Positions 1-42,661 of a stretch of DNA of 64,000 nt are shown here, piece after piece (position 1 is the first letter of the stretch; every line of letters starts with the position of its first letter). The notes beneath the pieces are model-generated. The model did no database searches and was not told the origin of the DNA. It saw only the letters and a program-made list of their open reading frames with translations. The DNA is from Tropicimonas sp. IMCC34043 (GTDB lineage Bacteria; Pseudomonadota; Alphaproteobacteria; Rhodobacterales; Rhodobacteraceae): the NCBI RefSeq assembly GCF_003390845.1, contig NZ_QMEK01000004.1, positions 1 to 64,000 on the forward strand, in the 5' to 3' direction. A program made the position numbers and the translations under genes.

Positions 1-36
1 TCTCAAGACGTGGGAGAGTAGGTCACCGCCAAACCT
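1..36 (+). rRNA. rrf: 5S ribosomal RNA, 3' end (partial)
   Basis: The first 36 bases match the conserved 3' arm of alphaproteobacterial 5S rRNA: the CAAGACGTGGGAGAGTAGGTC block followed by a CGCCAAACCT 3' end, which closes helix I. The body of the gene lies upstream of the window. This implies that a ribosomal RNA operon on the plus strand ends here. The exact 3' end is an estimate. Confidence 0.85.
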
Positions 37-394
37 AGCGAAATTCCCAATAACTCTCGACGATCGTCGCAAAATCCAAACCAACAAAACACAACGCCCT
101 AGGATAGTCATCCCAAGGCTGGCCAGTATCGAACCGCGCCGAAATGCCAAAGGTCCTTAAGCCAGACTGACCCACCCAAACGGATCCGGACCAAGTTTTC
201 CCAAAGGTCCGCGCATCGTGCACCCCCCGGCTATGTTCGGGACTGATCCCAAATCCGGACTTGGCAAACCCCGTTCCCGACGGATACTTTTGCGAAAGTT
301 CAATCCTCTTGCGGCCCGCGGGTGCGGGCTCAACCGGCTCTCGGTTGCCACCGGCAAGCGGTTTTGGGTCGCACTGGAAACGAATGGATCAGGC
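37..394. other. Intergenic spacer after the rrn operon
   Basis: This 358-base stretch between 5S rRNA and the haem-protein gene holds no tRNA or convincing ORF. Its first 90 bases are noticeably more AT-rich than the rest of the window. A perfect 12-base palindrome (CGACGATCGTCG, 58-69) followed by CAAAA could help terminate the rRNA transcript but has no loop. The promoter of the following signalling operon should lie here; I could not pick out convincing -35/-10 boxes. Confidence 0.5.
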
Positions 395-1144
395 ATGACC
401 CGCACCTCCCTTCTTGTATTCATGGCCATTTCTATCCTGACAGCACCCGGCAGGTCTGTCGCCGAGACCAGCCAACAGGCTCTTGTTGACAGCGGCAACC
501 GGCTTGCAGCGCTTTTGCGCGCAGGTCGCAGTGTGATCTCGGAAAACCAGGCGCTGATCAATGACCCCGACATCGCCGACAAGGGACTTACCCCGGAGGT
601 CTTCCTCGATCAGGTTGTCGCGGTCTTCGAGGCGCGCAATGGCGCGCCGCCGCTCGGGCCTGATCTGACCGAGATGCAGGCGCGCCTGACCGAAGCCCAG
701 CTTGCCGCAATGGCGGGCGTGATCGCCGATGCGCAGGGCCTGATCAATACCGAGGGGTTGGGGTTCAAGGGCTTCATCCCGGCGGTTTTCGCGCGGCTGA
801 CCAACGAACGCTTCGGCGAGGCGGTGGGGGGGCTGGCCAGCGTCAAGGTCACGGCGCCGCCCGAACTGGTGCGCAACCGTACCGCACGTCCGGACCCCTG
901 GGAAAAAGCGGTGATCGTGGAACGGTTCCTTGCTCCCGACTGGGTGAAGGGCGCGGCCTATTTCGAGGAAACCGACGGGGCCGACGGGCCGGCCTTTCGC
1001 ATGTTGATCCCGGAGTATTACAGTCCCTCGTGCCTTAGTTGCCATGGGCAACCGAAGGGTGAGGTGGACGTCACGGGCTTTCCCAAGGAGGGCGGAGCCG
1101 AGGGCGATCTTGGTGGTGCGATTTCCATCACGTTGAAGCCTTGA
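395..1144 (+). CDS. Exported Tll0287-like (DUF3365) c-haem sensor protein
   Basis: The 249-residue protein has a signal peptide (about residues 1-23, with SVA before the likely cleavage site) and one CxxCH haem c site, CLSCH at residues 213-217, near its C-terminus. The spacing and the preceding PEYYSPSC stretch are typical of the Tll0287-like/DUF3365 family, a periplasmic haem-binding fold often found alone or as the sensor module of receptor kinases. The ATG at 395 was chosen because it directly precedes the signal peptide; the frame is open back to 218. The stop overlaps the TTG start of the next kinase gene by 4 bases, so the two are almost certainly translationally coupled. I infer that the protein reports redox state or a gas ligand to that kinase. 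Confidence 0.8.
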
Positions 1145-3813
1145 GCCCGACCTCGACCCTGCGCCGGATCACGGCGAACCGGATCCCCTGGCGCATCGGG
1201 TCGCTGACCGCGATCCTGCTCGGCGCGCTTGTGGTTTCGACCCTTGTCGTCGCGCTTGAATTCACCGCCAATCAAGGGCGCATTGCCGAGGCCACGCAAC
1301 GGTTCCACCGGCTGCAGATCGCCGCCGAGGCGGAACGAAATTTCGGTGCAATGCGGTACTGGTTGACCGAACTGGCGGTCAGCCTGCTGACTCTGTCCGA
1401 GACAAAGGCGCACGAGGCCCGTGACAGGCTTGAATCGAGCCTCGAAAACCTCGGCAGCTTTGCGCCGGAAACCGCCGGGCAAATCGGCAGCGCGGTCGAT
1501 GGCTATTGGGACACCTCGATCGCTGCGGTCGACGCCTATACCGACGGCAACCGGATCATCGGCAACACGCTCGGGGCGCAGGCACGTCAGCAAGGCGCGG
1601 CGGTGAACGAGGCTTTTACCGCGCTGGTCAACGACCTTGCCAGAGAGGCCGACGCCGCCAATGCGGTGTCGGCCGAGGCCTCGCGCGCGGCCAAGACCCG
1701 GGCGGTGCTCGTCTGCCTCGCCATTGTCGGACTCGGCGCGTTGCTGACGGTTCGGGTGCTGCGCCAGATCCTCGGTCCGCTGCGCCGGATCAATGCTGCG
1801 ATGTCCGATGTCCAGGAGGGGCGCCCACCGCAGGATCTGCCTCCCGATGGCCCGGACGAATTCGGCCGTCTGGCGCATACCTTGCGCGATCTCTACGAAA
1901 CCCAGCAGGCGCGCCGCCAGCTTGAAGCGGCGGCGGCCGAACAGCGGCGCACCGTGGTGACGGCAATCGAGACCATCCCGGACGGCTTTTCGCTCTACGA
2001 TGCCAATGACCGGCTGATGCTGCGCAACCAACGCTTCCTCGAGATGTTCCCTGCCGCGGCCAACCTGCCCGAGGGGGCAGGCTATGGCGATTTCCTCGAT
2101 GCAGCGATCGCGACCGGAGAGGTGGATCTGGGCGATCGTGACCCCGGCGCCTGGAAGGCCGGACGAATGAAGATACATGCCGATCCGGCCGGATCGCGCA
2201 AGGAGATGCCCTATGCCAGCGGCTGGATGATGGTCACCCGGCGCAAGACCCCCGATGGCGGCACGGTCTGTGTCTATTCCGACATCACGGAACTGCGCCG
2301 GCGCCAGACCGAACTGGAGGTTGCGCGGGCGGAGGCAGAGGCCGCCAACGAGTCGAAAAGCCGTTTTCTCGCATCGATGAGCCACGAATTGCGGACGCCG
2401 CTGAACGCCATCATCGGCTATTCCGAGATGCTGATCGAGGATAGCGAGGATGAGGGCAACACGGCGATGGTGCCGGATCTGGAGAAGATCATGGCCTCGG
2501 GTCGGCATCTTCTGGCGTTGATAAACGACATTCTCGACCTGTCGAAGGTCGAGGCCGGCAAGATGGAGCTGCATCTGGAGCGGATCGACCTGACCGCGCT
2601 GCTGCGCGAGGTCGAGGCGACAGTGGCGCCGCTGGTCGCGCGCAATGGCAACCGGCTGCAGGTCACCCTTGGCCCCGATCTTGGCGACATCGAGAGCGAT
2701 CGCACCAAGCTGCGGCAGAACCTGTTCAACCTGCTGTCGAACGCGGCGAAATTCACCGACCACGGACAGATCGAGCTCGAGGTGCGCCGGGAGGACGAGG
2801 CGGTGCGCTTTGATGTGCGCGACGACGGGATCGGCATGAGCGAGGAGCAGATGGCGCGATTGTTCCAGCCGTTCTCGCAGGCCGAAAGCTCGACTGCCAG
2901 CACCTATGGCGGCACCGGACTGGGGCTGTCCATTGTCCGCAGCTTCACCGAGATGATGGGCGGCGAGGTCACGGTGCGTTCGGCGCCCGGCAAGGGCGCG
3001 TGCTTTACCCTGACCCTGCCGGCGCGGTCCGAGGCTGCCGTCGTCGGGCGCGACGCGCATTTCAAGGTCCTGATCATCGACGACGACACGGCGGCGCTGT
3101 CCTCGCTGGCCGAATTCGTCCGCGGCGAGGGCTATACCGTCTTTGCCTCCTGCGACGGGCAGACAGGGGTCGATCTGGCGCGGACGCACCATCCCGACGT
3201 GATCCTTCTCGACGTCATCATGCCCGAACGCGATGGCTGGTCGGTGCTGCGCGAGTTGAAGCAGGACCCGGTCCTGTGCGAGACCCCGGTCATTCTGGTC
3301 ACCGTGGTTGCCGACCGCGACATGGGGCTTGCCTTTGGCGCCGTCGATCACATGATCAAGCCGGTCGATCCCGAACGCCTGATCGACCGCATCCAGCGTC
3401 TGGTGGGCGACCGGGCGCGCGAGGTGCTGGTGGTGGACGACGACCCGGCGACCCGGGCGCTGTTCCGCCGGCTGCTGGTGCGCGAGGGATGGGCGGTGCG
3501 CGAGGCATCGGACGGCGCGCGGGCGCTGGCGCTGATCGCCGAACATGCCCCGGGGCTGGTGATTCTCGATCTGATGATGCCGAATATCGACGGGTTCGAG
3601 GTGCTGCGCCACCTGCGCAGCGCGAGTGACTCGGCCGACATCCCGGTTATAGTTGCCACATCCAAGGATCTGACCCGGCGCGAGATCGACTGGCTTGGCG
3701 CGCATGCCCGCGACGTGGTGCGCAAGGGGGCCGACGGGCGCGGCGATCTTCTTGCGGCGATCCACAGACATGTCGGCGGGGCGCCCGCCACGCAGAAAGG
3801 CACCGACGAATGA
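1141..3813 (+). CDS. Hybrid sensor histidine kinase with two receivers
   Basis: This is an 890-residue membrane kinase. Order: TM1 (about 17-40), a roughly 145-residue periplasmic helical region, TM2 (about 186-208), HAMP (about 209-262), a PAS domain (about 270-385), HisKA with the phospho-acceptor His415 in SHELRTPLN, and HATPase_c with N-box NLLSNAAKF and the GGTGLGLSI lid. Receiver 1 follows (Asp691 in LLDVIMPE), then receiver 2 (Asp810 in [10 protein letters not shown]). Translation probably starts at TTG 1141, inside a TTGA overlap with the haem-protein gene; no in-frame ATG precedes TM1. The stop overlaps the next ATG (ATGA). Phosphate could pass from His415 to either receiver and on to the downstream response regulators. 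It is most likely the partner of the haem protein, by coupling and by its periplasmic domain. Confidence 0.9.
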
Positions 3814-4175
3814 CGAAGGTCCTGATTGTCGAAGACAATGAAATGAACCTCGACATGCTGTCGCGGCGGTTGTCGCGCAAGGGATTCACGGTGATCTCGG
3901 CGCGCGACGGCGAAGCCGCGGTCAGGACGTGCCGCGAGGCTGTGCCGGATGTGGTGCTGATGGACATGAGTCTGCCGGTCATGGATGGCTGGACCGCGAC
4001 CCGCGCTCTGAAGGGCGATCCCGCGACCGAGGGTATTCCGGTGATCGCGCTGACCGCGCATGCCATGGAGGCCGACCGCGAAAAGGCGCTGGCCGCTGGC
4101 TGCGACGCATTTGCGACCAAACCCATCGACCTGCCCGACCTGCTTGCGACCATCGACAGCCTGCTGTCCGGCTGA
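3810..4175 (+). CDS. Single-domain response regulator (CheY/DivK-like)
   Basis: The 121 residues form a complete receiver domain and nothing else. It has the acidic pair Glu8-Asp9, phospho-acceptor Asp52 in [12 protein letters not shown], the conserved Thr in ALTAHAM, and Lys in TKPID. It overlaps the kinase gene by 4 bases and lies 3 bases before the cyclase gene. Lone receivers of this type shuttle phosphate in phosphorelays or act through protein contacts, as DivK does. Here it could link the hybrid kinase to the His82 site of the cyclase protein; that link is inference. Confidence 0.9.
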
Positions 4176-4178
4176 TCC

Positions 4179-5702
4179 ATGGCCGTTGAGGACAAGATCC
4201 GCCGCAGGGCGATGTCGATCCGCATCGCGCAGCGGCTGTTCGGACCGGCCGAGGCAATCGCCGGGTTTCAGGACATCGTGCTGGAGGAACTGCGCAAGTC
4301 TGGCCCGGACGAGGCGCTGGCCGATGCCTTGAAGGTCCAGGCCGCCGCACATGATCTGCTGGCGCTGGTCGCCGCACTAAAGAACGGCGAGGTCGAGCCC
4401 GGCGACAAGACGCGGCTTCGCCACGATCTGCGCACGCCGGTCAATGCGATCCTCGGTTACTCAGAACTGATCGTCGAGGATTTCGGCGACCGCATCGCGC
4501 CCTCGGTTCTGGCCGACATCCGCACCGTGACCGGCGAATGTGCCATCCTCGTCAGTCAGATCGACCGCGTTCTCGACACCAACCCCGATACCGCCGAGAC
4601 AACCATCGACGCCCTGACCGCGCGGTCGCTGGAACAGACGCTGTCGCTGAGCCGGACCGAGCAAAGCGCGCTTTGCGGCCGGATCCTGGTGGTGGACGAC
4701 ACTGCCCAGAACCGCGATCTGCTGAAACGCCAGCTGGTGCGGCAGGGCCACGAGGTGACGCTGGCCGCCTCTGCCACCGAGGCGCTGGCGCTGGTCGAGA
4801 CCGGGGATTTCGATCTGGCCCTGGTCGATATCCTGATGCCGGATCTGAACGGCATCGAGCTGCTCGGCCGGCTGAAGGCGCATCAGGACTGGCGCCAGAT
4901 CCCGGTGATCATGGTCTCGGGCCTGAACGAGATCCGCGCCGTCACCCGCTGCATCGAGGCGGGCGCCGAGGATTATCTGGAAAAGCCGGTGGACCCGGTG
5001 CTGCTGGAAAGCCGCGTCAGGGCCTGCCTTGAACGCCGCCGGTGGCAGCTGCGCGAGCGCGAATATGTCGCCCGGATCGAATACGAACGCGACCGGGCCG
5101 ATGCGCTGCTGCATGCCATGCTGCCTGCGCCCGTCATCCGCCGGTTGCGCGACGGCGAAGATGTCATCGCCGACCGTTTCGAGGTCGCCACCATCGTCTT
5201 TGCCGACATCGTCGGTTTCACGCCGCTGGTGGCCAGCATCGATCCCGCGGAACTGGTGCAACGCCTGACCGCGGTGTTCCTTACCTTCGACGATATCGCC
5301 GACCGGCACGGCGTCGAAAAGATCAAGACCATCGGCGATGCCTATATGGCCGCCTGCGGTGTGCCCGTGCCGCGCCGTGACCACGCCCACCGCGCATTCG
5401 ATTTTGCCCGCGACATGATCCGGGCAACCGAGGCCGGGCACGGCGGCGGGCTGTCGATCCGGGTCGGGTTGCACTCGGGCCCCGTGATCGCCGGCCTCGT
5501 CGGGCGTGTGCGCTTCGTCTATGACGTCTGGGGCGCGACGGTGAACCTCGCCAGCCGGCTCGAGGCAAGCGGCGTGCCGGGGCGCATCCATCTGTCGGGC
5601 GACGCCCGCAGGCTGCTGGCCGACCGTCTGATAGGCGAGCCCGAGGCGCGCACCCAAAACATCAAGGGGGTAGGGGTTATGACGACCTATCTGGTCGACT
5701 GA
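4179..5702 (+). CDS. Adenylate cyclase with DHp-like and receiver domains
   Basis: This 507-residue cytoplasmic protein has three parts. First is a HisKA-like dimerisation/phospho-acceptor segment (His82 in RHDLRTPVNAILGYSE) with no ATPase domain after it. A receiver follows (about 166-285, Asp217 in LVDILMPDLNG). A class III nucleotide cyclase domain ends it (about 325-507). Cyclase metal aspartates are visible in FADIVGFT and in GDAYM. The purine-selecting residues are Lys (KIKTIGDAY) and Asp (YDVWG), the adenylyl-cyclase pair, and the transition-state Asn and Arg occur in VNLASR. It should therefore make cAMP under phosphorelay control. It is the last gene of the operon and converges on cyoD, 18 bases away. 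The kinase-like segment cannot autophosphorylate without an ATPase domain, so it probably works as a phosphotransfer hub. Confidence 0.88.
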   Translation: MAVEDKIRRRAMSIRIAQRLFGPAEAIAGFQDIVLEELRKSGPDEALADALKVQAAAHDLLALVAALKNGEVEPGDKTRLRHDLRTPVNAILGYSELIVEDFGDRIAPSVLADIRTVTGECAILVSQIDRVLDTNPDTAETTIDALTARSLEQTLSLSRTEQSALCGRILVVDDTAQNRDLLKRQLVRQGHEVTLAASATEALALVETGDFDLALVDILMPDLNGIELLGRLKAHQDWRQIPVIMVSGLNEIRAVTRCIEAGAEDYLEKPVDPVLLESRVRACLERRRWQLREREYVARIEYERDRADALLHAMLPAPVIRRLRDGEDVIADRFEVATIVFADIVGFTPLVASIDPAELVQRLTAVFLTFDDIADRHGVEKIKTIGDAYMAACGVPVPRRDHAHRAFDFARDMIRATEAGHGGGLSIRVGLHSGPVIAGLVGRVRFVYDVWGATVNLASRLEASGVPGRIHLSGDARRLLADRLIGEPEARTQNIKGVGVMTTYLVD

Positions 5703-5720
5703 ACGCCGCCGCAGCCGCTT

Positions 5721-6071
5721 TTACATATCCCCGCCCGGCATGACCAGCATGCGCAGGTTCAGGTTGACCATGATCCAGATCGTGCCGGCGACCATGATGA
5801 TCAGAAGCAGCAGCGAGAACAGGATCAGGTGCAACTCGTCCCGCTTGCCCGGGCTCAGATCCACATGCAAAAAATACCGCAAGTGGACGCCGAACTGGAC
5901 GATGCCGCAGCCAGCGATCACCGCGATCGTGGCGACAGCCGAAAGACGCCCGGTCGCCACCGCCCAGAATGGCACGGCGGTCAGCAGCGCGGCGATCAGG
6001 AATCCGCTGAGATAGCCGCGCAGGCCGCGGCGGTACCCGTCGTCGTTCGACTGCGGGGCGGGGTCTGACAT
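5721..6071 (-). CDS. cyoD: Cytochrome bo3 quinol oxidase subunit IV
   Basis: The 116-residue protein has three predicted membrane helices (around AALLTAVPFWAV, VIAGCGIVQFGVHL and LILFSLLLLIIMVAG). The VQFGVHLRYFLHVD stretch is characteristic of CyoD, the small subunit that assists CuB binding during assembly. The start ATG shares one base with the TGA stop of cyoC. It is the last gene of the cyoABCD operon; no cyoE haem O synthase follows it. Confidence 0.93.
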   Translation of the reverse strand: MSDPAPQSNDDGYRRGLRGYLSGFLIAALLTAVPFWAVATGRLSAVATIAVIAGCGIVQFGVHLRYFLHVDLSPGKRDELHLILFSLLLLIIMVAGTIWIMVNLNLRMLVMPGGDM

Positions 6072-6694
6072 CAGGCGAGCCCTCCAAGATAGACGACCGA
6101 GAAGATCCCGATCCAGATCAGGTCGAGGAAATGCCAGAACAGCGCCAGCCGCGCCGCGCCGGCCCTGACCCGGCCGGTAACACCCTGTGTGCCCATCTGC
6201 ACCAGAAGGATCGTCAGCCAGATCACCCCTGCGGTGACATGCAGCCCGTGCAGCGGCACCAGACCCCACAACGCCGAAAGATACCCCGACCGCTGTGGCA
6301 CAGCGCCGATATCGAGCAGCCGGGCGAACTCGCGCCCCTCGAGCCCGAGGAACACGAGCCCCAGCGCCAGCGTCACCAGAAGCCAGCCCATCGCCTGCGC
6401 CCGGCCCCGGCCATGGGCGATGGCCAGCGAGGCAAGGCCGAAGGTGAAGGTGCTGGTCAGCAGCGCGCCGGTTTCGAACGCGGCACTTCTGAGTTCGAGA
6501 ATGTCTTTCGGTCCTGGCCCACCGGCAATGCTCATCGGTGTCAGCATGGTGGCATAGGTGGCGAAGAACAGGCTGAAGATGATCAGATCGCTCATCATGA
6601 ACAGCCAGAAGCCCGAGATCGCCTTGCCCGGATCGTCGTTGTGCATGGTCGGGGTTGCGTCAAAGCTGAACCCTGTCTGCGCGATGTCGCTCAT
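6071..6694 (-). CDS. cyoC: Cytochrome bo3 quinol oxidase subunit III
   Basis: This 207-residue, five-helix membrane protein is of the haem-copper oxidase subunit III family. It opens with a hydrophilic N-terminus, then GFWLFMMSDLIIFSLFFATY, and contains the typical LHGLHVTAGVIWL segment with its histidines. Its length matches E. coli CyoC. The start overlaps the stop of cyoB (ATGA) and its stop overlaps the start of cyoD, so translation is coupled throughout. Confidence 0.95.
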   Translation of the reverse strand: MSDIAQTGFSFDATPTMHNDDPGKAISGFWLFMMSDLIIFSLFFATYATMLTPMSIAGGPGPKDILELRSAAFETGALLTSTFTFGLASLAIAHGRGRAQAMGWLLVTLALGLVFLGLEGREFARLLDIGAVPQRSGYLSALWGLVPLHGLHVTAGVIWLTILLVQMGTQGVTGRVRAGAARLALFWHFLDLIWIGIFSVVYLGGLA

Positions 6695-8793
6695 GGCCGA
6701 AGGTCCCTGTATTCGGGCGCCGCCATGCCGCGATTGGCCGGGCTACGCTCCTGGGTGCGGGGCGCCGCGGGCAGGGCGCGGATGCGCGCCAGCCAGGCGC
6801 GGTGTTCGGCCGCGACCTCGGCGGCGGGGATCACCCTGGGATGCCTGTCGCCGCGGATCGCCCGCCCGATCAGCGTCACCGCAATGACCGCGAAGGACAG
6901 CGCCGCCAGCCACCACATGTACCAGATCAGCCCGAAGCCCAGCGTCGTGCCGAAGATCGCCATGACCAGCCCGGTCCAGGTCGGCCCCGGCAGATCGATG
7001 TCGGCATAGGACGCAGGCTCGGGATAGCCGGCGCCCGCCGCCTTCGCGCTGGCAAAGGCCTCGCGGGAATGGACCCGGGGGATCACGGCAAAGTTGTACT
7101 CGGGCACCGGCGAGGGTGTGGCCCATTCCAGCGTCCGTCCGTCCCAGGGGTCGCCGCCGATGTCGCGGGTCTGCTCTCGGTTGCGGATCGAGACCCAGAG
7201 CTGCACGCAAAGGCTGGCAAGCCCGGCTGTCAGCAGCGCGGCACCGACGCCCGCGATATGGAACCAGATCTGAAACGCCGGTTCGGCATAGGCCATGGTG
7301 CGACGGGTCATCCCCATGGCGCCAACGACATAAAGCGGAAAGAAGGCCAGCATGAACCCGGCGATCCAGTTGAAGGCCGCGATCCGGCCCCAGACCTCGT
7401 TCAGGCGAAAGCCGAAGATCTTGGGAAACCAGTAGGTATAGCCCGCGAACAGACCGAACAGCACCCCGGGGATCAGCATGTTGTGGAAATGCGCGACCAG
7501 AAACAGCGTGTTGTGAACCTGGAAATCGACCGCCGGATTGGCCAGCAGGATGCCGGTCAGCCCGCCGAGGACGAACAGCATCATGAAGGCGAGCAGATAG
7601 ATCACCGGCACCGTAAACCGGATCCGCCCGCGAAACAGCGTCGCCATCCAGTCATAGATCTTCACGCCCGTGGGCACGCCGATCAGCATGGTGGCGATGC
7701 CGAAGGCGGCGTTGACATCGGCCGACTGACCCATGGTGAAGAAATGGTGCAGCCAGACGGTGAACGACAGCAGCGCGATCACCATGGTCGCCGCGACCAG
7801 CGACCCATAGCCATAGAGCCGCTTGCCGGAGAAGGTCGAGGCAACCTCGGAATAGACCCCGAAGGCGGGCAGGACCAGGATATAGACCTCGGGGTGGCCG
7901 AACAGCCAGAAGATGTTGGCATAGTTCATCATGTTGCCGCCAAGGTCGTTGGTGAAGAAATGGAACCCCAGATAGCGGTCGAGCACCAGCATCGCCGACG
8001 AAACGGTGACCGCGGGCATGGCAAAGATCATCATGATCGCGGTGCAAAGTGCCGTCCAGGTGAACATCGGCATCTGCATGAACCCCATGCCGGGTGCGCG
8101 TTCCTTGTAGATCGTGACCACGAAATTGATGCCGGTGAGGGTCGATCCAACCCCTGACAGGATCACCGCCCACAGCCAGTAATCCGGCCCCACCCCGGGC
8201 TGGAACACGCGGCCGGTATAGGGCGGATAGGCGGTCCAGCCGCCGGTCGAGAATTCGCCGATCACCAGCGAGATCATGATCAGTGCGGCGCCCGCAGTGG
8301 TGAAGCCAAGACTGACCGAATTCAGCATCGGAAAGCTGACGTCGCGGGCCCCGATCTGCAGCGGCACCACGATGTTGATCAGGCCGGTCAGGAACGGCAT
8401 CGCCATGAACAGGACCATGATCGTGCCGTGGGTGGAAAACAGCTGCCCGAAATGGTTGGCCGACAGGAACCCGCCGGTCAGCCCGTCCGCCTGCTGGGCG
8501 CGCATCACCACGCCCTCCAGCACGCCGCGCACCAGCATCACCATGGCAAGCACGATGTACATCACCCCGATCTTCTTGTGATCGACGCTGGTCAGCCAGT
8601 CGCGAAACAGCGGCCGCCAGGCCCGGAAGATCGTCAGCAGCGCCACTACGGTGACCGCGCCAAGGATCACCACCCAGGCCGCGCCCGACAGGATGTCGTC
8701 GTTCTCGGACGGGGCATAAAAGGCCTTCAGGAAATCGAGCGCGTCGACGTCGAGCCGACCGAGGGCCAGTGACCAGAGTTCCTGCGATGTCAT
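6691..8793 (-). CDS. cyoB: Cytochrome bo3 quinol oxidase subunit I
   Basis: The 700-residue catalytic subunit has the haem-copper oxidase landmarks: FGHPEVYILVLPAFG (CuB histidine and cross-linked tyrosine), WLHHFFTMG (CuB His-His pair) and VAHFHNMLIPG (haem ligands). The length and the long N- and C-terminal extensions (extra helices) are typical of CyoB rather than of aa3 subunit I. It reduces oxygen to water with ubiquinol electrons and pumps protons. A good ribosome-binding site (AAGGTGG) lies in the 15-base gap after cyoA. Confidence 0.97.
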   Translation of the reverse strand: MTSQELWSLALGRLDVDALDFLKAFYAPSENDDILSGAAWVVILGAVTVVALLTIFRAWRPLFRDWLTSVDHKKIGVMYIVLAMVMLVRGVLEGVVMRAQQADGLTGGFLSANHFGQLFSTHGTIMVLFMAMPFLTGLINIVVPLQIGARDVSFPMLNSVSLGFTTAGAALIMISLVIGEFSTGGWTAYPPYTGRVFQPGVGPDYWLWAVILSGVGSTLTGINFVVTIYKERAPGMGFMQMPMFTWTALCTAIMMIFAMPAVTVSSAMLVLDRYLGFHFFTNDLGGNMMNYANIFWLFGHPEVYILVLPAFGVYSEVASTFSGKRLYGYGSLVAATMVIALLSFTVWLHHFFTMGQSADVNAAFGIATMLIGVPTGVKIYDWMATLFRGRIRFTVPVIYLLAFMMLFVLGGLTGILLANPAVDFQVHNTLFLVAHFHNMLIPGVLFGLFAGYTYWFPKIFGFRLNEVWGRIAAFNWIAGFMLAFFPLYVVGAMGMTRRTMAYAEPAFQIWFHIAGVGAALLTAGLASLCVQLWVSIRNREQTRDIGGDPWDGRTLEWATPSPVPEYNFAVIPRVHSREAFASAKAAGAGYPEPASYADIDLPGPTWTGLVMAIFGTTLGFGLIWYMWWLAALSFAVIAVTLIGRAIRGDRHPRVIPAAEVAAEHRAWLARIRALPAAPRTQERSPANRGMAAPEYRDLRP

Positions 8794-8808
8794 TCCGGCA
8801 TTTCCACC

Positions 8809-9771
8809 TTATTCGCCCGACGTTTGGGGGTGATAGTCCGGCGCGCCGGGCTGTGCGGCATCGGCCAGCGCCCGGCCCGACATATAGCGGCCGAGAACGC
8901 CGTCGAAGAGTCCGGGCGCGATGCCCGAGAAATAGGTGACGTCTTCGGGCATTCCTGCGGTGCCAAAGCCCTTGCGGACCTCGGCTGGCGTCGACTGCCC
9001 GGCCAGCCTTGCATAGGTGGCGGCATCGAGCGGCACGCCTTGGTCCTTCACCTCGGCCACCCAGGCGTCGAACGCCGCCGGCTCCATCGCCCGCGCCGCG
9101 AACCGTTGCTCGTGAAACCCCTTGCCGTTGTACTGGGTGTTGAAACCGGCGAAATCGCCGGTCTGGTCGGCGGCAAAGTTCAGCTTCGTGCGCATTCCCG
9201 GCATGGCATAGATCTGACCGACGAGTTGCGGGATCATGAACGACTGCATCACGGTGTCGGTGGTCAGCTCCAGCGACACCGCGCGATCCTGCGGGAATGC
9301 CAGCTCGCCCACCGTCGCGATGCCTTGTTCGGGGTAGAGGAACAGCCACTTCCAGTCGAGCCCCACCACCTGAACCTGCAGCGGCGGCGTCGGGCCGGCA
9401 ATCGGGCGATAGGGGTCGAGTTTGTGCGTGTCCTGCCACAGGAAGGTGCCCAGCACGACGACGATGCCGGCCGGCACCAGCCACATCACCCATTCAAGCG
9501 GGCGCGAGAGGTCCCAATGCGGGGCATAGCGGGCACGGGCATTGCCATGACGATAGCGCCAGGCCAGCAGCGGCACGCCCAGCAGGACCGGCACCACCAC
9601 GATCATCGTTATCACTATGATCCGCCAGAACTGCTCGCGTTGCAGCGCCGCAACCGGCCCTTCGGGCGACAGGAACCCGATCCCCGCCTGCGCGCTGCCC
9701 GCCATCAGGGCAATCGCCATCGCAAGTGGAATGGCCGCGGTCATTGCGGGCTGCGGCCGGGGCGGGGGCAT
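8809..9771 (-). CDS. cyoA: Cytochrome bo3 quinol oxidase subunit II
   Basis: This 320-residue subunit II has an exported N-terminus (signal sequence about 1-30), two membrane helices and a cupredoxin domain. The cupredoxin domain contains no cysteine, so the CuA site is absent. That loss distinguishes quinol oxidases from cytochrome c oxidases. WKWLFLYPEQGIATV and SFMIPQLVGQIYAMPGM are typical CyoA stretches. The ATG at 9771 was chosen for its AAGGAG site 7 bases upstream and because the frame before it encodes low-complexity sequence. First gene of cyoABCD; the promoter should lie in 9772-9953, where I saw no FNR box. Confidence 0.94.
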   Translation of the reverse strand: MPPPRPQPAMTAAIPLAMAIALMAGSAQAGIGFLSPEGPVAALQREQFWRIIVITMIVVVPVLLGVPLLAWRYRHGNARARYAPHWDLSRPLEWVMWLVPAGIVVVLGTFLWQDTHKLDPYRPIAGPTPPLQVQVVGLDWKWLFLYPEQGIATVGELAFPQDRAVSLELTTDTVMQSFMIPQLVGQIYAMPGMRTKLNFAADQTGDFAGFNTQYNGKGFHEQRFAARAMEPAAFDAWVAEVKDQGVPLDAATYARLAGQSTPAEVRKGFGTAGMPEDVTYFSGIAPGLFDGVLGRYMSGRALADAAQPGAPDYHPQTSGE

Positions 9772-9953
9772 GGCGGCTCCTTGCGGGGGGACGTTACCGT
9801 GATCGGTGAGTTCAGGCCTGGCAACGCTAGCATCCGGTCGGTGCCGCGAACAAGCCGTCACAGCCATGCCAGCCCCCGGCGGGCCCGAAATCCACAAAGC
9901 GCCCGCAGGCCGTGACCGCGGGCAGAAGGCCGGAGTCTCCGGGTGCGGCCGCC

Positions 9954-10973
9954 TCACTCCATAGACGGGAAGATCGTTGCCCAGTCGTTCTTCATGCTGA
10001 TGATGTTCCAGCCCTGTTTCCCGGCGTCGTCCATCAGGTCCTGCGGGAAAGTGCCGAATTTTGTGTCAGGCTCGCCATTGGCCGGGCCATAGGCATATTC
10101 GCGGTCGGCATCGTCGTGAAACACCAGCATCATCAGCCGCGCGCCGTCGCCGTCTTGGGTCCATTCCAGCATCTGACGGTCGCCGGCCGAGTTGCCGAAG
10201 GCCGCAATCGGACGCCGGCCGATGTGCGAGTTGATCCCGACCGGCTTGCCGTCCTTGTCATCGATAAAGTCGACTTCGGCCAGACGCATCAGCACCGGCT
10301 TGCCATCGACCATCTTGAACTCGGTCTTGATCGAGGATCCGACGACCTGCTCGGGCGGGATGCCATAGACCTGTTCCGTCCAGGGCCGCATGAATTCGAT
10401 CCCGCCGCCCGAGACGATGAACGTCTTGAAATCGTTGTCCTGCAGATACCCCAGCAGTTCCAGCATCGGCTGATAGACCAGATCGGTATAGGGGCGGTCG
10501 AATTTCGGATGCTTCGCCGTCGCCATCCAGTCGCGAACGATCGTCTCGAAATCCGCGGTACTCATGCCCGCATGCGTGGCGGCGACGATCTGCATCAATC
10601 CGTGCTCGCCCGACGCGGCCAGCGCCTTGATGTCGCCCTCCAGCACTGCCTGGAATGGCTGGGTCGTCTGCCATTCCGGGTGGTCGGGGGCCAGCGCCTT
10701 CACCCGGTCGAGCGCAAAGGCGAGCTGGGTATACATCGGGTGTTCTGTCCACAGCGTACCGTCGTTGTCGAAAGTGGCGATGCGCGCCGCCGGGGGCACA
10801 TAGTCGGCGCCCGACGCGTCCGTTACGGTCTGCACGAAGCTGACGATTGCCGCCTTGGCATCGCCATCGTTCCAGGACGGCAGCGGATCGTCCTGTGCGA
10901 GCGACGGGAAGGCAAATGCGAGAACCGACAGGGCGGGGATCGCACCGCGTGCGACAAGCAACGACAAGTTCAT
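9954..10973 (-). CDS. Exported HAD-superfamily phosphatase
   Basis: The 339-residue protein has a signal peptide (about 1-26, cleavage after SLA) and HAD motifs: FDNDGTLW (nucleophile Asp and acid/base Asp), FIVSGGG as motif II, and AFGNSAGDRQM as the Mg-binding motif. It resembles periplasmic phosphoserine-phosphatase-like or nonspecific acid phosphatases; the substrate is unknown. It lies 95 bases downstream of the arylsulfatase on the same strand and is probably co-transcribed, suggesting joint scavenging of sulfate and phosphate from organic esters. The ATG at 10973 is chosen because it starts the signal peptide. Confidence 0.8.
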   Translation of the reverse strand: MNLSLLVARGAIPALSVLAFAFPSLAQDDPLPSWNDGDAKAAIVSFVQTVTDASGADYVPPAARIATFDNDGTLWTEHPMYTQLAFALDRVKALAPDHPEWQTTQPFQAVLEGDIKALAASGEHGLMQIVAATHAGMSTADFETIVRDWMATAKHPKFDRPYTDLVYQPMLELLGYLQDNDFKTFIVSGGGIEFMRPWTEQVYGIPPEQVVGSSIKTEFKMVDGKPVLMRLAEVDFIDDKDGKPVGINSHIGRRPIAAFGNSAGDRQMLEWTQDGDGARLMMLVFHDDADREYAYGPANGEPDTKFGTFPQDLMDDAGKQGWNIISMKNDWATIFPSME

Positions 10974-11068
10974 TCGATTATCCTCTCTGGCGGAGATTTC
11001 ACCTGACACTGGGCGCCTGTGAAAGGCCGGGCCCGTTTCGGGGCCCGGCCAGGTCTGGCGTGTCGGGG

Positions 11069-12769
11069 TCAGTTGCCCGTGGGCATGCCGATGTTGACGC
11101 CATCCTTGGCAAGCGCGTCTTTCGCCCACTGGAACCGCTGATAGTTCGTGATGGTGATCGGGCCCGAATAGCTTTCGCTCTGAAGCTTGCGCGGCGGATA
11201 CTGGACATAGGTCTTCATGAGGTTGGTGATCGAGTCGTTGGCCTGCACCATCGCCCAGGTCGTCTCGGTCCAGTTGGTCATGAAGATGTCATAGCGCTCC
11301 TGCGGATCTTGCAGCAGGTCGAACACCTGCGGAACCGTCGCGACATAGCTTTCCGGCCCCTTCCAGCCGCGGTTGGTGTCGACCGCCAGACCGCCGGTCT
11401 GGGCGCCGTCGTCGCCGCGCAGGTTGAAGACATACTTGAACTGGCCGACACGGGCCGCGCCGGGGCTCAACTCGTTCTCGGTGAAGTAGAACCAGCTCTT
11501 GCGATCCGACGGGCCGGCGCCGGTCCAGACCGGGGTCATGTCATAGCTGTCGAAGATGATCGGCTGGCCGTCGCGGTCGTTCTCGGGCAGCTTCTCGCCC
11601 GCAATCGAGGCGAAGGTTGCCATCAGGTCGAGCCCGCCGAGGATATCGTCGCTCTTCGAGCCCGGCGCCACATGTCCGGGCCAGCGCACCATGGTCGGCA
11701 CCCGGTTGCCGCCTTCGCGAACCGTGCCCTTGGTGCCGCGGAACGGGGTATAGCCGGCATCGGGGTAGACATCCTGCCAGGCGCCGTTGTCGACGGTGTA
11801 GAAGACCACGGTATTGTCTGCCAACCCGAGTTCACCGAGCTTGGCCAGCACATTGCCGACCCTTGTGTCGAGTTCGACTACGGAATCGGCATATTTGGTT
11901 TTCGAGATCGACTTGCCCTCGAATTCCGGTGCCGGCATGTTCGGCTGGTGGTTCTTCATGAAGTTGACGTTGATGAAGAACGGCGTGTCCGGGGCTTTGG
12001 CGGCGTCTTCAAGGAATTCGACCGCGGCCTTTTCGACGTAGGCGTCGAGGAAGGGGATGCCCACGACGCCCTTGTCCGGGGTGTCGACATATTCGCCGTT
12101 GACCATGAAATCCTGCTTGACCGGCTCGCCGGCATTGCCCGACAGCGCGCCCTTGGTCGCCTTGACGAAGACCTCGCGCAGGTCGTCCGACATCTCCGGA
12201 AACCACTTCGGGTCGGCATAGGTATAGGCGTTGAGGTGATAGAGAAAGGCGTACTTCATCACGTCATAGCCCTGGGCATTCGGCAGCGCATAGTCGCTTT
12301 CGCCCAGATGCCACTTGCCGGTGAAGTAGGTCTTGTAGCCGGCTTCCTTCAGCACCGACCCGAGCGTCCATTCCGCGGCCGGCAAGCCGCCGCCCTGGCC
12401 CTGGAACGCGACGGTCGTCATGCCCGAGCGGTTCGGGATGCGCCCGGTCTGGATCGCCGCGCGGCCCGGCGTGCAGCTTGGCTGACCATAGAAATTGGTA
12501 AAGATCATTCCGTCTTCGGCCAGCTTGTCAAAGTTCGGCGTCGGCATCCCGCGCGCGGCACCACCGAGATAGGGGCCAAGATCCCCCCAGCCGGTGTCGT
12601 CCGAGACGATCAGCAGAATGTTCGGTTTGGCCTCTGCTGTGGCCTCGGTCTGCGCCGAGGCAGAAAAGGCAAAAGACCCGCCGATGCCGGTGGCGACCAC
12701 AAGGACGGCGGTCAGCGACAGTCGCCAGCCTCCGCTCAAATCCCGGCTGTTCGGCCATGAATTCGTCAT
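11069..12769 (-). CDS. Exported arylsulfatase (formylglycine type)
   Basis: The 566-residue sulfatase has an N-terminal signal/anchor (about 1-40, FSASAQ). The metal-binding start is NILLIVSDDTGWGDLGPY, and the catalytic cysteine motif SCTPGRAAIQTGR fits the C-x-P-x-R core modified to formylglycine. Further down are KWHLGE and the second metal site FYTVDNGAWQD. It hydrolyses sulfate esters in the periplasm or outside the cell; the true substrate cannot be read from sequence. The fourth motif position is Gly rather than the common Ser. No formylglycine-generating enzyme or choline-sulfate genes are in the window. The start is supported by GGGAG about 10 bases upstream. Confidence 0.88.
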   Translation of the reverse strand: MTNSWPNSRDLSGGWRLSLTAVLVVATGIGGSFAFSASAQTEATAEAKPNILLIVSDDTGWGDLGPYLGGAARGMPTPNFDKLAEDGMIFTNFYGQPSCTPGRAAIQTGRIPNRSGMTTVAFQGQGGGLPAAEWTLGSVLKEAGYKTYFTGKWHLGESDYALPNAQGYDVMKYAFLYHLNAYTYADPKWFPEMSDDLREVFVKATKGALSGNAGEPVKQDFMVNGEYVDTPDKGVVGIPFLDAYVEKAAVEFLEDAAKAPDTPFFINVNFMKNHQPNMPAPEFEGKSISKTKYADSVVELDTRVGNVLAKLGELGLADNTVVFYTVDNGAWQDVYPDAGYTPFRGTKGTVREGGNRVPTMVRWPGHVAPGSKSDDILGGLDLMATFASIAGEKLPENDRDGQPIIFDSYDMTPVWTGAGPSDRKSWFYFTENELSPGAARVGQFKYVFNLRGDDGAQTGGLAVDTNRGWKGPESYVATVPQVFDLLQDPQERYDIFMTNWTETTWAMVQANDSITNLMKTYVQYPPRKLQSESYSGPITITNYQRFQWAKDALAKDGVNIGMPTGN

Positions 12770-13227
12770 ATGTATTTCTCCCAGTTCGCTATTCGTTTCC
12801 CGACCGGGCGATGAAAAGATCGCCGTCTGACCGCGCCGTCCCTAATTGCGCGGCGGGTGCAGGGATATTGCAACCCACTGCTCAATGGTACCGCAAATCC
12901 CCAATCGGCTCACCAGAAAAGTTCCCGAAAAACGCCTGGTCGTCCTGCGGCCAACGGTCCGCGTCCGTGCCGTTGCCTCAATCCGGGCAGGCGAAGCCCT
13001 TGATTCGCGGCGCTCTGGCCGGACCCTGCGCGAATACGGGCAGAGCCTCGGGAAATATGCGGCGAGAATGTGCAAATCGCTGCTGTATCCTTGAAGGAAC
13101 TGGACGGCCCCGAAAATCTGCGCTGAGGTACGAGACATGGATTGATCGATCCCGCTATGGCAGGGTCGGTTGGCAGTCGCCCCTGACAGCAGGGTACGGC
13201 GCAGGGTCGGCAGGGGGTGCGTTTGAC
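12770..13227. promoter_or_regulatory. Divergent promoter region, sulfatase / ABC importer
   Basis: This 458-base gap between two divergent transcripts must contain both promoters. No coding sequence is convincing in it. An imperfect inverted repeat, GGGTGCA-N6-TTGCAACCC, occurs at about 12856-12877 and may be an operator nearer the sulfatase side. I found no clear sigma-54, FNR or NtrC site. Confidence 0.45.
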
Positions 13228-14016
13228 GTGACGACAAACGGAAACGGCAATGCGGCAGTTGCCCTCGAGGTCAACGAAATCCACAAGACCTTCGGTACGC
13301 ATGAGGTCCTCAAGGGGATCTCGCTGACCGCGCATGACCACGATGTGGTCGCGATCCTTGGCTCGTCCGGTTCGGGCAAGTCGACGTTCCTGCGCTGCAT
13401 CAACCTGCTCGAGACCCCGACCAGCGGCGAGGTCCGCGTGAAGGGCGAACAGATCAGGATGACGATCCGGCGCGGCGAGCCGGCTCCGGCCGACATGAAG
13501 CAGGTCGACCGCATCCGCTCGAAGCTCGCCATGGTGTTCCAGCAGTTCAACCTCTGGCAGCACATGACGATCCTCGACAATGTGGTTGCGGGTCAGGTCC
13601 ACGTGCTCGGCCGCGACAAGCACGAGGCCACCGCCAAGGCCGAGGAAATGCTCAAGAAGGTCGGCGTCTCGGACAAGGTCGGCCACTATCCCAGCCAGCT
13701 CTCCGGCGGTCAGCAGCAGCGCGTCGCGATCGCCCGTGCGCTGGCCATGGATCCGGAGGTCATGCTGTTCGACGAACCAACCTCGGCGCTCGACCCGGAA
13801 CTGGTGAATGAAGTGCTCAAGGTGATGCGCGGGCTGGCCGAAGAAGGACGGACCATGCTGGTCGTCACCCACGAGATGGGGTTTGCCCGCGAGGCCGCCA
13901 ACCGGCTGATGTTCCTGCATCAGGGGCTGGTCGAGGACGAGGGCGACCCCCGAGAGGTGATGAAGAACCCCAATTCGGAACGCTTCCGGCAATTCCTGAC
14001 CGGAAGCCTGAAATAA
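13228..14016 (+). CDS. Polar amino-acid ABC importer, ATP-binding protein
   Basis: The 262-residue HisP/ArtP/AotP-type ATPase has Walker A GSSGSGKST, a Q-loop in VFQQFNLW, signature LSGGQQQRVAIARAL, Walker [13 protein letters not shown] and switch His in VVTHEM. Translation probably starts at GTG 13228; the frame is open upstream but carries no family sequence. It is the first of four genes (ATPase, binding protein, two permeases) that together make a complete importer. The family takes up basic amino acids (His, Arg, Orn, Lys) or glutamine; the neighbouring cyanophycin genes favour arginine/ornithine. Confidence 0.92.
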   Translation: MTTNGNGNAAVALEVNEIHKTFGTHEVLKGISLTAHDHDVVAILGSSGSGKSTFLRCINLLETPTSGEVRVKGEQIRMTIRRGEPAPADMKQVDRIRSKLAMVFQQFNLWQHMTILDNVVAGQVHVLGRDKHEATAKAEEMLKKVGVSDKVGHYPSQLSGGQQQRVAIARALAMDPEVMLFDEPTSALDPELVNEVLKVMRGLAEEGRTMLVVTHEMGFAREAANRLMFLHQGLVEDEGDPREVMKNPNSERFRQFLTGSLK

Positions 14017-41886: not shown

Positions 41887-41900
41887 TTGATTGAGATCAA
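41887..41900. promoter_or_regulatory. FNR box shared by hemN and fnrL
   Basis: TTGATTGAGATCAA is a perfect match to the FNR/FnrL consensus TTGAT-N4-ATCAA. Its centre lies about 42 bases upstream of the hemN ATG and about 21 bases upstream of the fnrL ATG. The first spacing suits class II activation of hemN; the second is so close that FnrL could block its own transcription or leader. Confidence 0.92.
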
Positions 41901-41914
41901 GAGGGCACATTCGG

Positions 41915-42661
41915 ATGGAGACGCCGGAGTTGGGAACGACACACGTGGAGTGTGAGGAATGTCCGATTCGGCATCGTGCAGTCTGTGCCCGATGCGATGA
42001 CAGGGAACTCGGGCTTCTTGAGGAAATCAAGTACTACCGCAGCTTCGACGCGGGGCAGACCATTGCCTGGACCGGCGACAAGCTCGATTTTGTTGCCTCG
42101 GTGGTCAGTGGCATCGCAACGCTCAGCCAGACGCTGGAGGACGGCCGCACCCAAATGGTCGGCCTGCTGCTGCCGTCGGATTTCATGGGGCGGCCCGGGC
42201 GCGAGACGGCTGCCTATGACGTGACCGCGACGACCGAGGTCGTGATGTGCTGTTTCCGCCGCCGACCCTTTGAAGAACTGATGAACCGGACCCCGCACAT
42301 TGCCCATCGCCTGCTCGAGATGACGCTGGACGAGCTGGACGCGGCGCGGGAATGGATGCTGTTGCTTGGCCGAAAGACCGCGCGCGAGAAAATGGCGAGC
42401 CTGCTTGCGATCATCGCCCGGCGCGACGCGGCGCTGAGGCCGACGACCATGGGGCGGACGCTGGAGTTCGATCTGCCGCTGACCCGCGAGGCGATGGCCG
42501 ATTATCTCGGGCTGACGCTGGAAACGGTGAGCCGCCAGGTTTCGGCGCTGAAACGCGAGGGCGTCATCTCGCTGGAGGGCAAGCGTCACATCTGCGTGCC
42601 CGATTTCGACCGGCTGCTGGTCGAGACCGGCGATGACGCCGACGGCGGGATGCTGGTCTAG
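41915..42661 (+). CDS. fnrL: FnrL, oxygen-sensing Crp/Fnr-family regulator
   Basis: The 248-residue regulator has N-terminal cysteines 13, 16, 24 and 27 (CEECPIRHRAVCARC) and a central CC pair (112-113), providing ligands for an oxygen-labile 4Fe-4S cluster. A cyclic-nucleotide-binding-like fold and a C-terminal HTH follow. Its recognition helix ETVSRQVSALK carries the Glu-x-x-Ser-Arg pattern that reads TTGAT. It should activate hemN, ccoNOQP and other boxes in this window when oxygen falls. The ATG at 41915 is used; an upstream in-frame start at 41891 would overlap the FNR box. Confidence 0.96.
   Translation: METPELGTTHVECEECPIRHRAVCARCDDRELGLLEEIKYYRSFDAGQTIAWTGDKLDFVASVVSGIATLSQTLEDGRTQMVGLLLPSDFMGRPGRETAAYDVTATTEVVMCCFRRRPFEELMNRTPHIAHRLLEMTLDELDAAREWMLLLGRKTAREKMASLLAIIARRDAALRPTTMGRTLEFDLPLTREAMADYLGLTLETVSRQVSALKREGVISLEGKRHICVPDFDRLLVETGDDADGGMLV

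Follow-up and report, generated by a model that had tools for sequence, protein, structure and literature searches.

A four-gene set in Tropicimonas that probably turns an outside gas or redox signal into an internal messenger

Results

A haem protein, a hybrid kinase, a receiver and an adenylate cyclase are encoded together

At positions 395–5702 of a 64,000-nucleotide stretch of DNA from Tropicimonas sp. IMCC34043 (NCBI RefSeq assembly GCF_003390845.1, contig NZ_QMEK01000004.1, positions 1 to 64,000; hereafter the window), four co-directional genes encode an exported c-haem protein, a hybrid histidine kinase, a lone receiver and an adenylate cyclase that carries a receiver of its own (Table 1). 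We find that this set is conserved and that its probable role is to convert a signal from outside the cell, a gas or a redox cue, into an internal messenger; in particular, we favor a reading in which the operon would encode a split periplasmic haem receptor that drives the synthesis of cyclic AMP (cAMP) through a His-Asp relay. An initial annotation of the window, made from its letters, had proposed that periplasmic redox or gas status is read by the haem protein, relayed to the cyclase and put out as cAMP; the finding is real, and it is more general than that annotation stated.

The contig begins at base 1 of the window. The gene overlaps and few-base spacing originally described are there (Table 1), as are the CxxCH motif, His415, the three receiver aspartates encoded ahead of the cyclase gene and the intact cyclase residues. 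The proposed identity of the first protein, exported and Tll0287-like, is borne out by a match to PF11845 (48.9 bits against a curated cut-off of 24.1) and by an export-type N-terminus, a Sec-type signal at about residues 1–23 whose hydrophobicity we judged by eye. This protein is not fused to transmembrane or signalling modules; it has a signal peptide alone, and the kinase is encoded separately.

From a cyclase-based scan we used the best 80 of 301 relatives as loci for comparison. A hybrid kinase lies nearby in 72 of these, a kinase together with a lone receiver in 69, and the haem gene in 23. Because a sample found through the cyclase is biased to the cyclase, we turned to whole genomes and used a profile built from the haem protein (A1) as the query. 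Matches were found in 5 of the 295 genomes searched in the window's family and 8 of the 385 in its class (the window included in each), and in 13 of 297 genomes of the family of another locus, L013 (L013 included); any match to PF11845 at all occurs in 55 of the 385 class genomes, and G007, the only further genome from this genus that was searched, lacks an operon-type haem gene. The operon type is sporadic in its distribution. With the window and L013 excluded, the further haem loci number 23, in 22 genomes. The full four-gene order is present in 15 of them (L133, L134, L135, L137 and L160–L170) and a linked cyclase in 18, so that the conserved co-occurrence which the initial annotation had put forward as a check is indeed seen. 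Elsewhere in this set the cyclase is a receiver-cyclase without the HisKA-like part described below (L138 and L139) or a convergent receiver-cyclase near which no lone receiver was found (L136), the haem gene lies upstream of a chemoreceptor (L141 and L142), or the locus is cut by a contig end (L140).

All three junctions measure 15 nt or less in 19 of 24 haem loci measured with aligned starts, the window included. The arrangement is more than chance, because the order recurs across genera, the junctions are tight and the phospho-acceptors are nearly invariant. A protein search of plasmids placed the haem gene in 79 plasmid records, 67 of them from Sinorhizobium, and pSymB of Sinorhizobium meliloti 1021 carries all four genes as open frames, which we recognized by motif and order and not by a domain scan.

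The haem protein is paired with a periplasmic domain of the kinase

The kinase consists of two transmembrane segments around a periplasmic region, followed by HAMP, PAS_7, HisKA, HATPase_c and two receivers (Pfam; transmembrane segments by hydropathy). Its TTG start is in register with the GTG start of L002, and it has the HisKA histidine, the HATPase_c domain and the receiver aspartates of a hybrid kinase. We coined the label SENS for its periplasmic domain, which contains the motifs FGxMRYWLTDLxVS and AVDAYTxxNRxIGN. Pfam gave weak, scattered matches and no credible family for SENS (the commonest, DUF7696, in 4 of 18 members, best E 8e-4), and neither phmmer nor profile searches of the PDB gave a credible match.

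A SENS-bearing receptor is encoded directly 3' of the haem gene in 22 of the 23 further haem loci, one of the 22 receptors being a chemoreceptor and another (L140) being counted by eye from a partial frame at a contig end. The exception is L142, where an in-frame stop interrupts a haem-Cache-like gene (2223–3032) whose match is weak (E 2e-29); the second piece of this gene contains CLVCH, and the gene precedes a chemoreceptor in which no SENS match was found. Among the 80 cyclase-found loci, a strong SENS match (above 110 bits) occurs in 24, namely the 23 with the haem gene, plus L051, where the contig begins 241 bases ahead of it. A reverse search found SENS in 8 of the 385 class genomes, and the haem gene adjoins it in 6; in the other two (G431 and G351), in which there is no PF11845 match, SENS belongs to chemoreceptors encoded behind an exported-looking protein of 152 or 154 residues without a Pfam family. 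Because the reverse search thus pairs SENS with the haem gene or with another exported-looking protein, it appears that SENS docks an exported protein whose gene immediately precedes that of the receptor, and that it does so regardless of output. By the same kind of gene association, the haem protein and SENS together look like a portable two-piece receptor, since SENS directly follows the haem gene in 22 of 23 loci, once as part of a chemoreceptor.

These findings bear on the chain drawn in the initial annotation. The association of the haem gene with the cAMP genes stood up; the closest tie of the haem protein is to SENS and not to the cyclase, because the pair also occurs with a SENS-carrying chemoreceptor (L141) and in sets that have no cyclase (L171 and L172). 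The small upstream proteins paired with SENS chemoreceptors, which lie at L179 (848–1306, with the chemoreceptor at 1342–3132) and L180 (838–1302, with the chemoreceptor at 1393–2847), are possibly a second type of partner for SENS.

Operon-type haem proteins stand alone and lack the axial cysteine

The CxxCH motif is present in 23 of 24, 13 of 13 and 8 of 9 operon-type haem genes in three sets; the exception in the set of 24 is L060, whose frame stops before the motif, and that in the set of nine is L138, described below. In 18 aligned operon-type members, the mature chains have no second cysteine by eye. At the aligned column of the axial cysteine, a cysteine is found in 0 of 34 operon-type, 0 of 13 fused and 0 of 4 short membrane-anchored proteins and in 10 of 11 other stand-alone proteins, column matching across such distant haem-Cache groups being imperfect. 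The operon-type proteins form a clade of their own (SH-aLRT, a likelihood-ratio branch support, 99; short-search tree) on a long branch, the placement of which within the family is unsure. Both comparisons left out near copies (L008, L011 and L015), L126, which repeats L102, loci without CxxCH (L060 and L138) or with a broken gene (L142), 7 of the 13 loci L160–L172, L120, which was lost to an over-tight position filter, and second PF11845 matches that had not been given loci. Judged by spacing, L120 has a cysteine 83 residues before its CxxCH, as other stand-alone proteins do. For the haem protein, too, neither phmmer nor profile searches of the PDB yielded a credible match.

According to excerpts from a February 2026 preprint (PMC12889525), the domain that defines the sCache_heme family is a Cache domain carrying c-type haem. 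One fused member, which has no axial cysteine, shows tight binding of nitric oxide (NO) and no stable complex with oxygen; a stand-alone member with the axial cysteine looks redox-like. Judged from their sequences, the operon-type proteins cut across this division, in that they stand alone yet lack the axial cysteine. The absence of that cysteine would leave the sixth haem position open or weakly held, and hence suggests a gas ligand, with NO ahead of others. NO would be the likeliest ligand, at a little under an even chance.

The same type of sensor has been joined to the same type of output by another route, as indicated by proteins in which a haem-Cache domain and a class III cyclase are fused in a single chain (L118, L119, L127 and L129). 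A figure legend in PMC12889525 already includes Guanylate_cyc among the domains joined to the sCache_heme family.

Residues of the proposed relay are conserved up to the receiver of the cyclase

The kinase residues in Table 1 were counted in 72 of the 80 cyclase-found loci plus the window. The aspartate of the lone receiver (D52) is present in 61 of 61 proteins (60 loci in which the gene lies within 600 nt, plus the window), and that of the cyclase receiver (D217) in 81 of 81 cyclases and then in 18 of 18 further cyclases. The catalytic domain has D343, K383, D387, D449, N456 and R460, which we take to be the metal-binding aspartate pair (D343 and D387), the adenine-type residues (K383 and D449) and the Asn/Arg pair (N456 and R460); the metal and adenine residues are kept in 78–81 of 81 cyclases.

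The cyclase also contains an orphan HisKA-like domain whose histidine, His82, is intact; a true phosphorelay would need this piece, which the earlier account of the operon had omitted. Its Pfam score is just above threshold (27.7 bits against a cut-off of 26.9), and its 33% identity over 70 residues to the HisKA region of the operon's own kinase (E 1e-13) indicates that the two segments are related. In our reading, the cyclase gene may descend from a kinase-receiver-cyclase that lost its ATPase domain. His82 is kept in 67 of 81 cyclases and in all 15 further cyclases that have the domain. Of the 14 in which no histidine could be read, 11 are verrucomicrobial, two (L056 and L076) are truncated or misaligned and one (L063) is masked; no alphaproteobacterial cyclase with a readable aligned residue lacks it.

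The kinase-receiver-cyclase box also occurs beside other sensor genes

The finding that the box occurs beside other sensor genes modifies the chain originally proposed. Among the 57 cyclase-found loci without the haem gene, nine have a FIST gene (eight directly upstream of the kinase, one downstream), four a Peripla_BP_5-type gene, and one each an NMT1-like, an ABC_sub_bind and a P460-like gene; for the remaining 41, some of which are cut by contig ends, no input gene was established. Upstream genes were inspected in 24 of the 57, and all 57 were then searched with four input proteins, the P460-like protein not among them. Pfam found no FIST match in the four operon proteins of the window; FIST is seen in the related cassettes only.

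Transmembrane segments are present in 24 of 24 haem-linked kinases (the window included) and in 7 of 7 that adjoin a solute-binding or P460-like gene, and in 0 of 9 FIST-linked kinases. With the haem, solute-binding and P460-like inputs taken as exported and FIST taken as cytosolic, sensor compartment and kinase type match in 40 of the 40 examined (Fisher p 4e-9, which is overstated because many of the loci are related).

The P460-like protein at L020 (4496–5647), encoded between the lone receiver and the kinase, is a very cysteine-rich c-haem repeat protein with CNDCH, and its match to cytochrome P460 is borderline (27.4 bits; cut-off 27). In the Ruegeria cassettes (L022–L025, L027, L032, L041, L063 and L066), the lone receiver is convergent and lies downstream of the cyclase; at L022, the nearest upstream gene on the same strand encodes an IclR-type regulator.

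Neighboring genes and other observations

The initial annotation had left open whether the convergent cyoABCD genes are a target or just a neighbor. They are a neighbor; as a conserved target they did not hold up, and we rejected cyo as a functional partner because the adjacency is not conserved. Within the 80 cyclase-found loci, cyo genes are near 3 (L007, L008 and L010, all Phyllobacterium), there upstream and so on the side opposite to that in the window, and they were not found near the other 77, nor near L133–L142 or L160–L172. More generally the flanks are not conserved: in a comparison of 32 haem loci, out of 47 in all, no flanking protein family turned up at more than 5. Superoxide dismutase (SOD) was likewise rejected as a general companion of the operon: export-type SOD genes directly follow the cyclase in 5 of the 80 loci, from two clades, and none was found in the 23 further haem loci, where little downstream sequence is available in L138, L164 and L169 (less than 600 nt beyond the cyclase) and in L140 and L142 (short contigs).

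Positions 1–40 of the window resemble by eye the 3' end of a 5S ribosomal RNA gene, so that the operon probably lies just downstream of a ribosomal RNA operon; an Rfam search of positions 1–6000 gave a single sub-threshold match and did not report the short 5S-like piece. At 41891–42661 the window encodes a Crp/Fnr-family regulator with a cyclic-nucleotide-binding fold and a cysteine-rich N-terminus, FnrL-like by eye. The same genome encodes, at L143 (1679–8191, minus strand), a single chain of 2171 residues with protein kinase, AAA, GAF, HisKA, HATPase, receiver and cyclase domains. At L171, a convergent gene for a receiver-SpoIIE phosphatase (4842–6230) lies about 740 nt from the haem-kinase-receiver set and is perhaps a swapped output. 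S. meliloti SMb20360 was considered and set aside: the title of the paper concerned mentions sodM, but sodM is SMc00911, and SMb20360 is there ClpP-like.

Table 1 Positions of the operon, its parts and compared genes (in the window unless another locus or replicon is named)
Feature	Positions	Strand	Details
Four-gene co-directional set	395-5702	+	haem protein, hybrid kinase, lone receiver, receiver-adenylate cyclase
Haem protein gene	395-1144	+	249 aa; exported c-haem Cache, sCache_heme / Tll0287-like
CLSCH haem-attachment motif	1031-1045	+	residues 213-217; chain without any other Cys
Hybrid kinase gene	1141-3813	+	TTG start; 4-nt overlap with haem gene
SENS periplasmic partner domain	1258-1710	+	about 150 residues, helical by eye; alignments
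His415, kinase phospho-acceptor	2383-2385	+	72/73 kinases, 1 gap
D691, phospho-acceptor of first kinase receiver	3211-3213	+	72/73
D810, phospho-acceptor of second kinase receiver	3568-3570	+	72/73, 1 gap
Lone receiver gene	3810-4175	+	121 aa; D52; Pfam; 4-nt overlap with kinase gene
Cyclase gene	4179-5702	+	507 aa; 3-nt gap after lone receiver; Pfam
Orphan HisKA (DHp)-like domain of cyclase	4416-4577	+	residues 80-133; no ATPase domain
His82 of cyclase	4422-4424	+	within motif HDLRTP
Cyclase receiver	4683-5018	+	D217 at 4827-4829
Class III cyclase catalytic domain	5169-5696	+	PF00211, 167.5 bits
cyoDCBA quinol oxidase	5721-9783	-	convergent with operon; Pfam and flank comparison
Fe/Mn-type SOD after cyclase, L013	10027-10707
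Fe/Mn-type SOD after cyclase, L016	10031-10708
Fe/Mn-type SOD after cyclase, L017	10020-10700
Cu/Zn-type SOD after cyclase, L052	10006-10656
Cu/Zn-type SOD after cyclase, L057	10113-10655
S. meliloti 1021 pSymB haem gene	7956-8741		CLSCH
S. meliloti 1021 pSymB kinase	8738-11491		RYWLTDL and HisKA motif
S. meliloti 1021 pSymB receiver	11516-11881
S. meliloti 1021 pSymB cyclase (L183)	11890-13452		HDLRTP

Discussion

The mechanism that we favor would run in four steps. The exported c-haem Cache protein would bind a small ligand at its open sixth haem position. It would then contact SENS and alter autophosphorylation of the kinase at His415, a step to which the gene association points strongly. 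The intact conserved residues suggest that phosphate would pass by way of the kinase receivers, the lone receiver or both to D217 of the cyclase. Phosphorylation there would set the activity of the adenylate cyclase, and cAMP would act through a Crp-type protein.

Several observations, in this paragraph and the next, weigh against this mechanism or its parts. Two further loci (L171 and L172) have haem-kinase-receiver sets without a cyclase. The haem gene of L138 (4682–5692, minus strand), which comes from a fragmented genome, carries RLTCH where CxxCH is expected; either the sequence is in error or the first haem-binding cysteine has truly been lost, and a true loss would count against a haem role there, since a haem sensor should not tolerate it. 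One other stand-alone protein, L131, also lacks the axial cysteine, so that the absence of this cysteine alone does not mark a sensor. With respect to NO, the genome that contains the window has no match to NirK or NirS and so no obvious denitrifying source of NO. NirK above cut-off occurs in 2 of 5 carriers of the operon against 2 of 28 non-carriers in the window's family (f1) and in 9 of 13 against 11 of 29 in the family of L013 (stratified p 0.013 across both families); with NirS added, the f1 counts become 2 of 5 against 10 of 28 and the stratified p 0.084, in a test that left out 5 of 23 carriers (from other families, two with NirK) for want of matched controls and in which genome size was uncontrolled. 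The association of nitrite reductase with operon carriers is weak. The haem protein might instead report periplasmic redox, oxygen or superoxide, the redox state of its haem being passed to the kinase. In favor of this alternative, excerpts from PMC12889525 assign redox roles to stand-alone members, as the window protein is, and describe the formation of superoxide when the tested proteins reacted with oxygen; moreover, the export-type SOD genes directly after the cyclase, which belong to two unrelated families and hint at oxygen chemistry, occur in 5 of the 23 cyclase-found haem loci against 0 of the 57 haem-less cassettes (p 0.0014, overstated by relatedness). Nevertheless, the axial cysteine of redox-type members is absent, and the SOD link is limited to two clades and did not reappear in the further loci. 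We regard a cue of redox, oxygen or superoxide as the less probable account, though by no means a remote one.

The HisKA-like domain of the cyclase may serve only as a scaffold for dimerization or docking, phosphate going straight from the kinase to the cyclase receiver. The haem-linked cyclases of L136, L138 and L139 have no such domain, and in 11 of the 12 verrucomicrobial relatives the histidine has given way to R, L or E with much of the motif retained; the conservation of His82 elsewhere, with no readable loss in an alphaproteobacterial cyclase, speaks against a mere scaffold. On balance the scaffold is probably the better account of this domain, and passage of phosphate to D217 through His82, as opposed to directly, seems rather doubtful. 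A four-step His-Asp-His-Asp relay is thus possible and would be neither required nor universal, because some haem-linked cyclases lack the domain and the verrucomicrobial relatives lack the histidine. It is very improbable that the operon exists to regulate the quinol oxidase beside it: cyoABCD is convergent next door and cyo lies upstream in three Phyllobacterium loci, but it was not found near any other locus compared, and no family recurs in more than 5 of 32 flanks. Equally improbable is that the haem protein senses the supply of haem, or the maturation of cytochrome c, and not a gas; because haem is attached covalently through periplasmic maturation, the apo form could differ from the holo form, but no flanking family recurs widely, in flanks that are mostly unannotated and were not searched for haem or Ccm genes as such.

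Searches of open-licence PMC papers, judged by titles and the starts of abstracts, turned up none that seems to describe the four-gene operon, and the word "operon" is absent from PMC12889525. In its logic the operon would resemble NosP-NosK-NosR, in which, according to excerpts from PMC12570481, an NO-binding accessory protein of the FIST type controls its kinase and a response regulator completes the set: in both, a separate haem accessory protein is encoded beside the kinase whose autophosphorylation it controls, or here would control, and the output is a second messenger. The FIST genes directly upstream of the kinase in eight related cassettes are a further parallel, in gene position. The sensor fold, the compartment and the output would differ, NosP having a FIST fold and a c-di-GMP-type output, whereas here an exported c-haem Cache protein accompanies a membrane kinase and a cAMP-type output. 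As far as excerpts from PMC12889525 describe them, fused sCache_heme receptors such as the Pseudomonas azotoformans protein share PF11845, CxxCH and the lack of the axial cysteine with the operon-type proteins; here, however, sensor and transmembrane receptor are two proteins and the sensor belongs to a separate clade. Tll0287 and the P. putida sCache_heme protein are, by the same excerpts, likewise stand-alone exported c-haem proteins, but with Cys/His axial ligation, unlike the protein of the window, which has no second cysteine and is linked to a kinase in an operon. CyaC of S. meliloti, as presented in excerpts from PMC10463352, is also a class III adenylate cyclase under haem-dependent control, but its haem is of the b type and sits in the membrane anchor of the cyclase itself, the signal it responds to is quinones, and no kinase or relay is described for it there.

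Other comparisons concern the relay itself. Cyanobacterial CyaC is an adenylate cyclase that is said, in work attributed to Kasahara and Ohmori in 1999, to be activated by autophosphorylation and phosphotransfer; it is reportedly one polypeptide, whereas here kinase, receiver and cyclase are separate and a haem sensor lies outside. TorT-TorS combines a periplasmic accessory protein with a kinase, without haem and without a cyclase, and ChpT and Spo0B carry out HisKA-like phosphotransfer without kinase activity, again without haem and without a cyclase. A bolder proposal would make the operon one version of a general plug-in cAMP relay in which one conserved box is served by unrelated sensors, the haem version converting NO outside the cell to cAMP by a phosphorelay with His82 as a transfer step, as an analogue of NO-cyclase signalling in animals. 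Taken as a whole, we hold this proposal to be speculative and on the unlikely side.

The inputs of class III cyclases are mostly unknown. If the reading of a split haem receptor driving cAMP synthesis is true, the operon shows how bacteria beyond the well-studied enterics couple periplasmic gas or redox chemistry to cAMP. A clade of stand-alone haem-Cache proteins tied to receptors would qualify the proposal that stand-alone members are redox proteins, and it supplies a candidate partner for a periplasmic domain without a credible Pfam family. Because the whole operon is present on pSymB of S. meliloti 1021, the idea is testable in a model plant symbiont.

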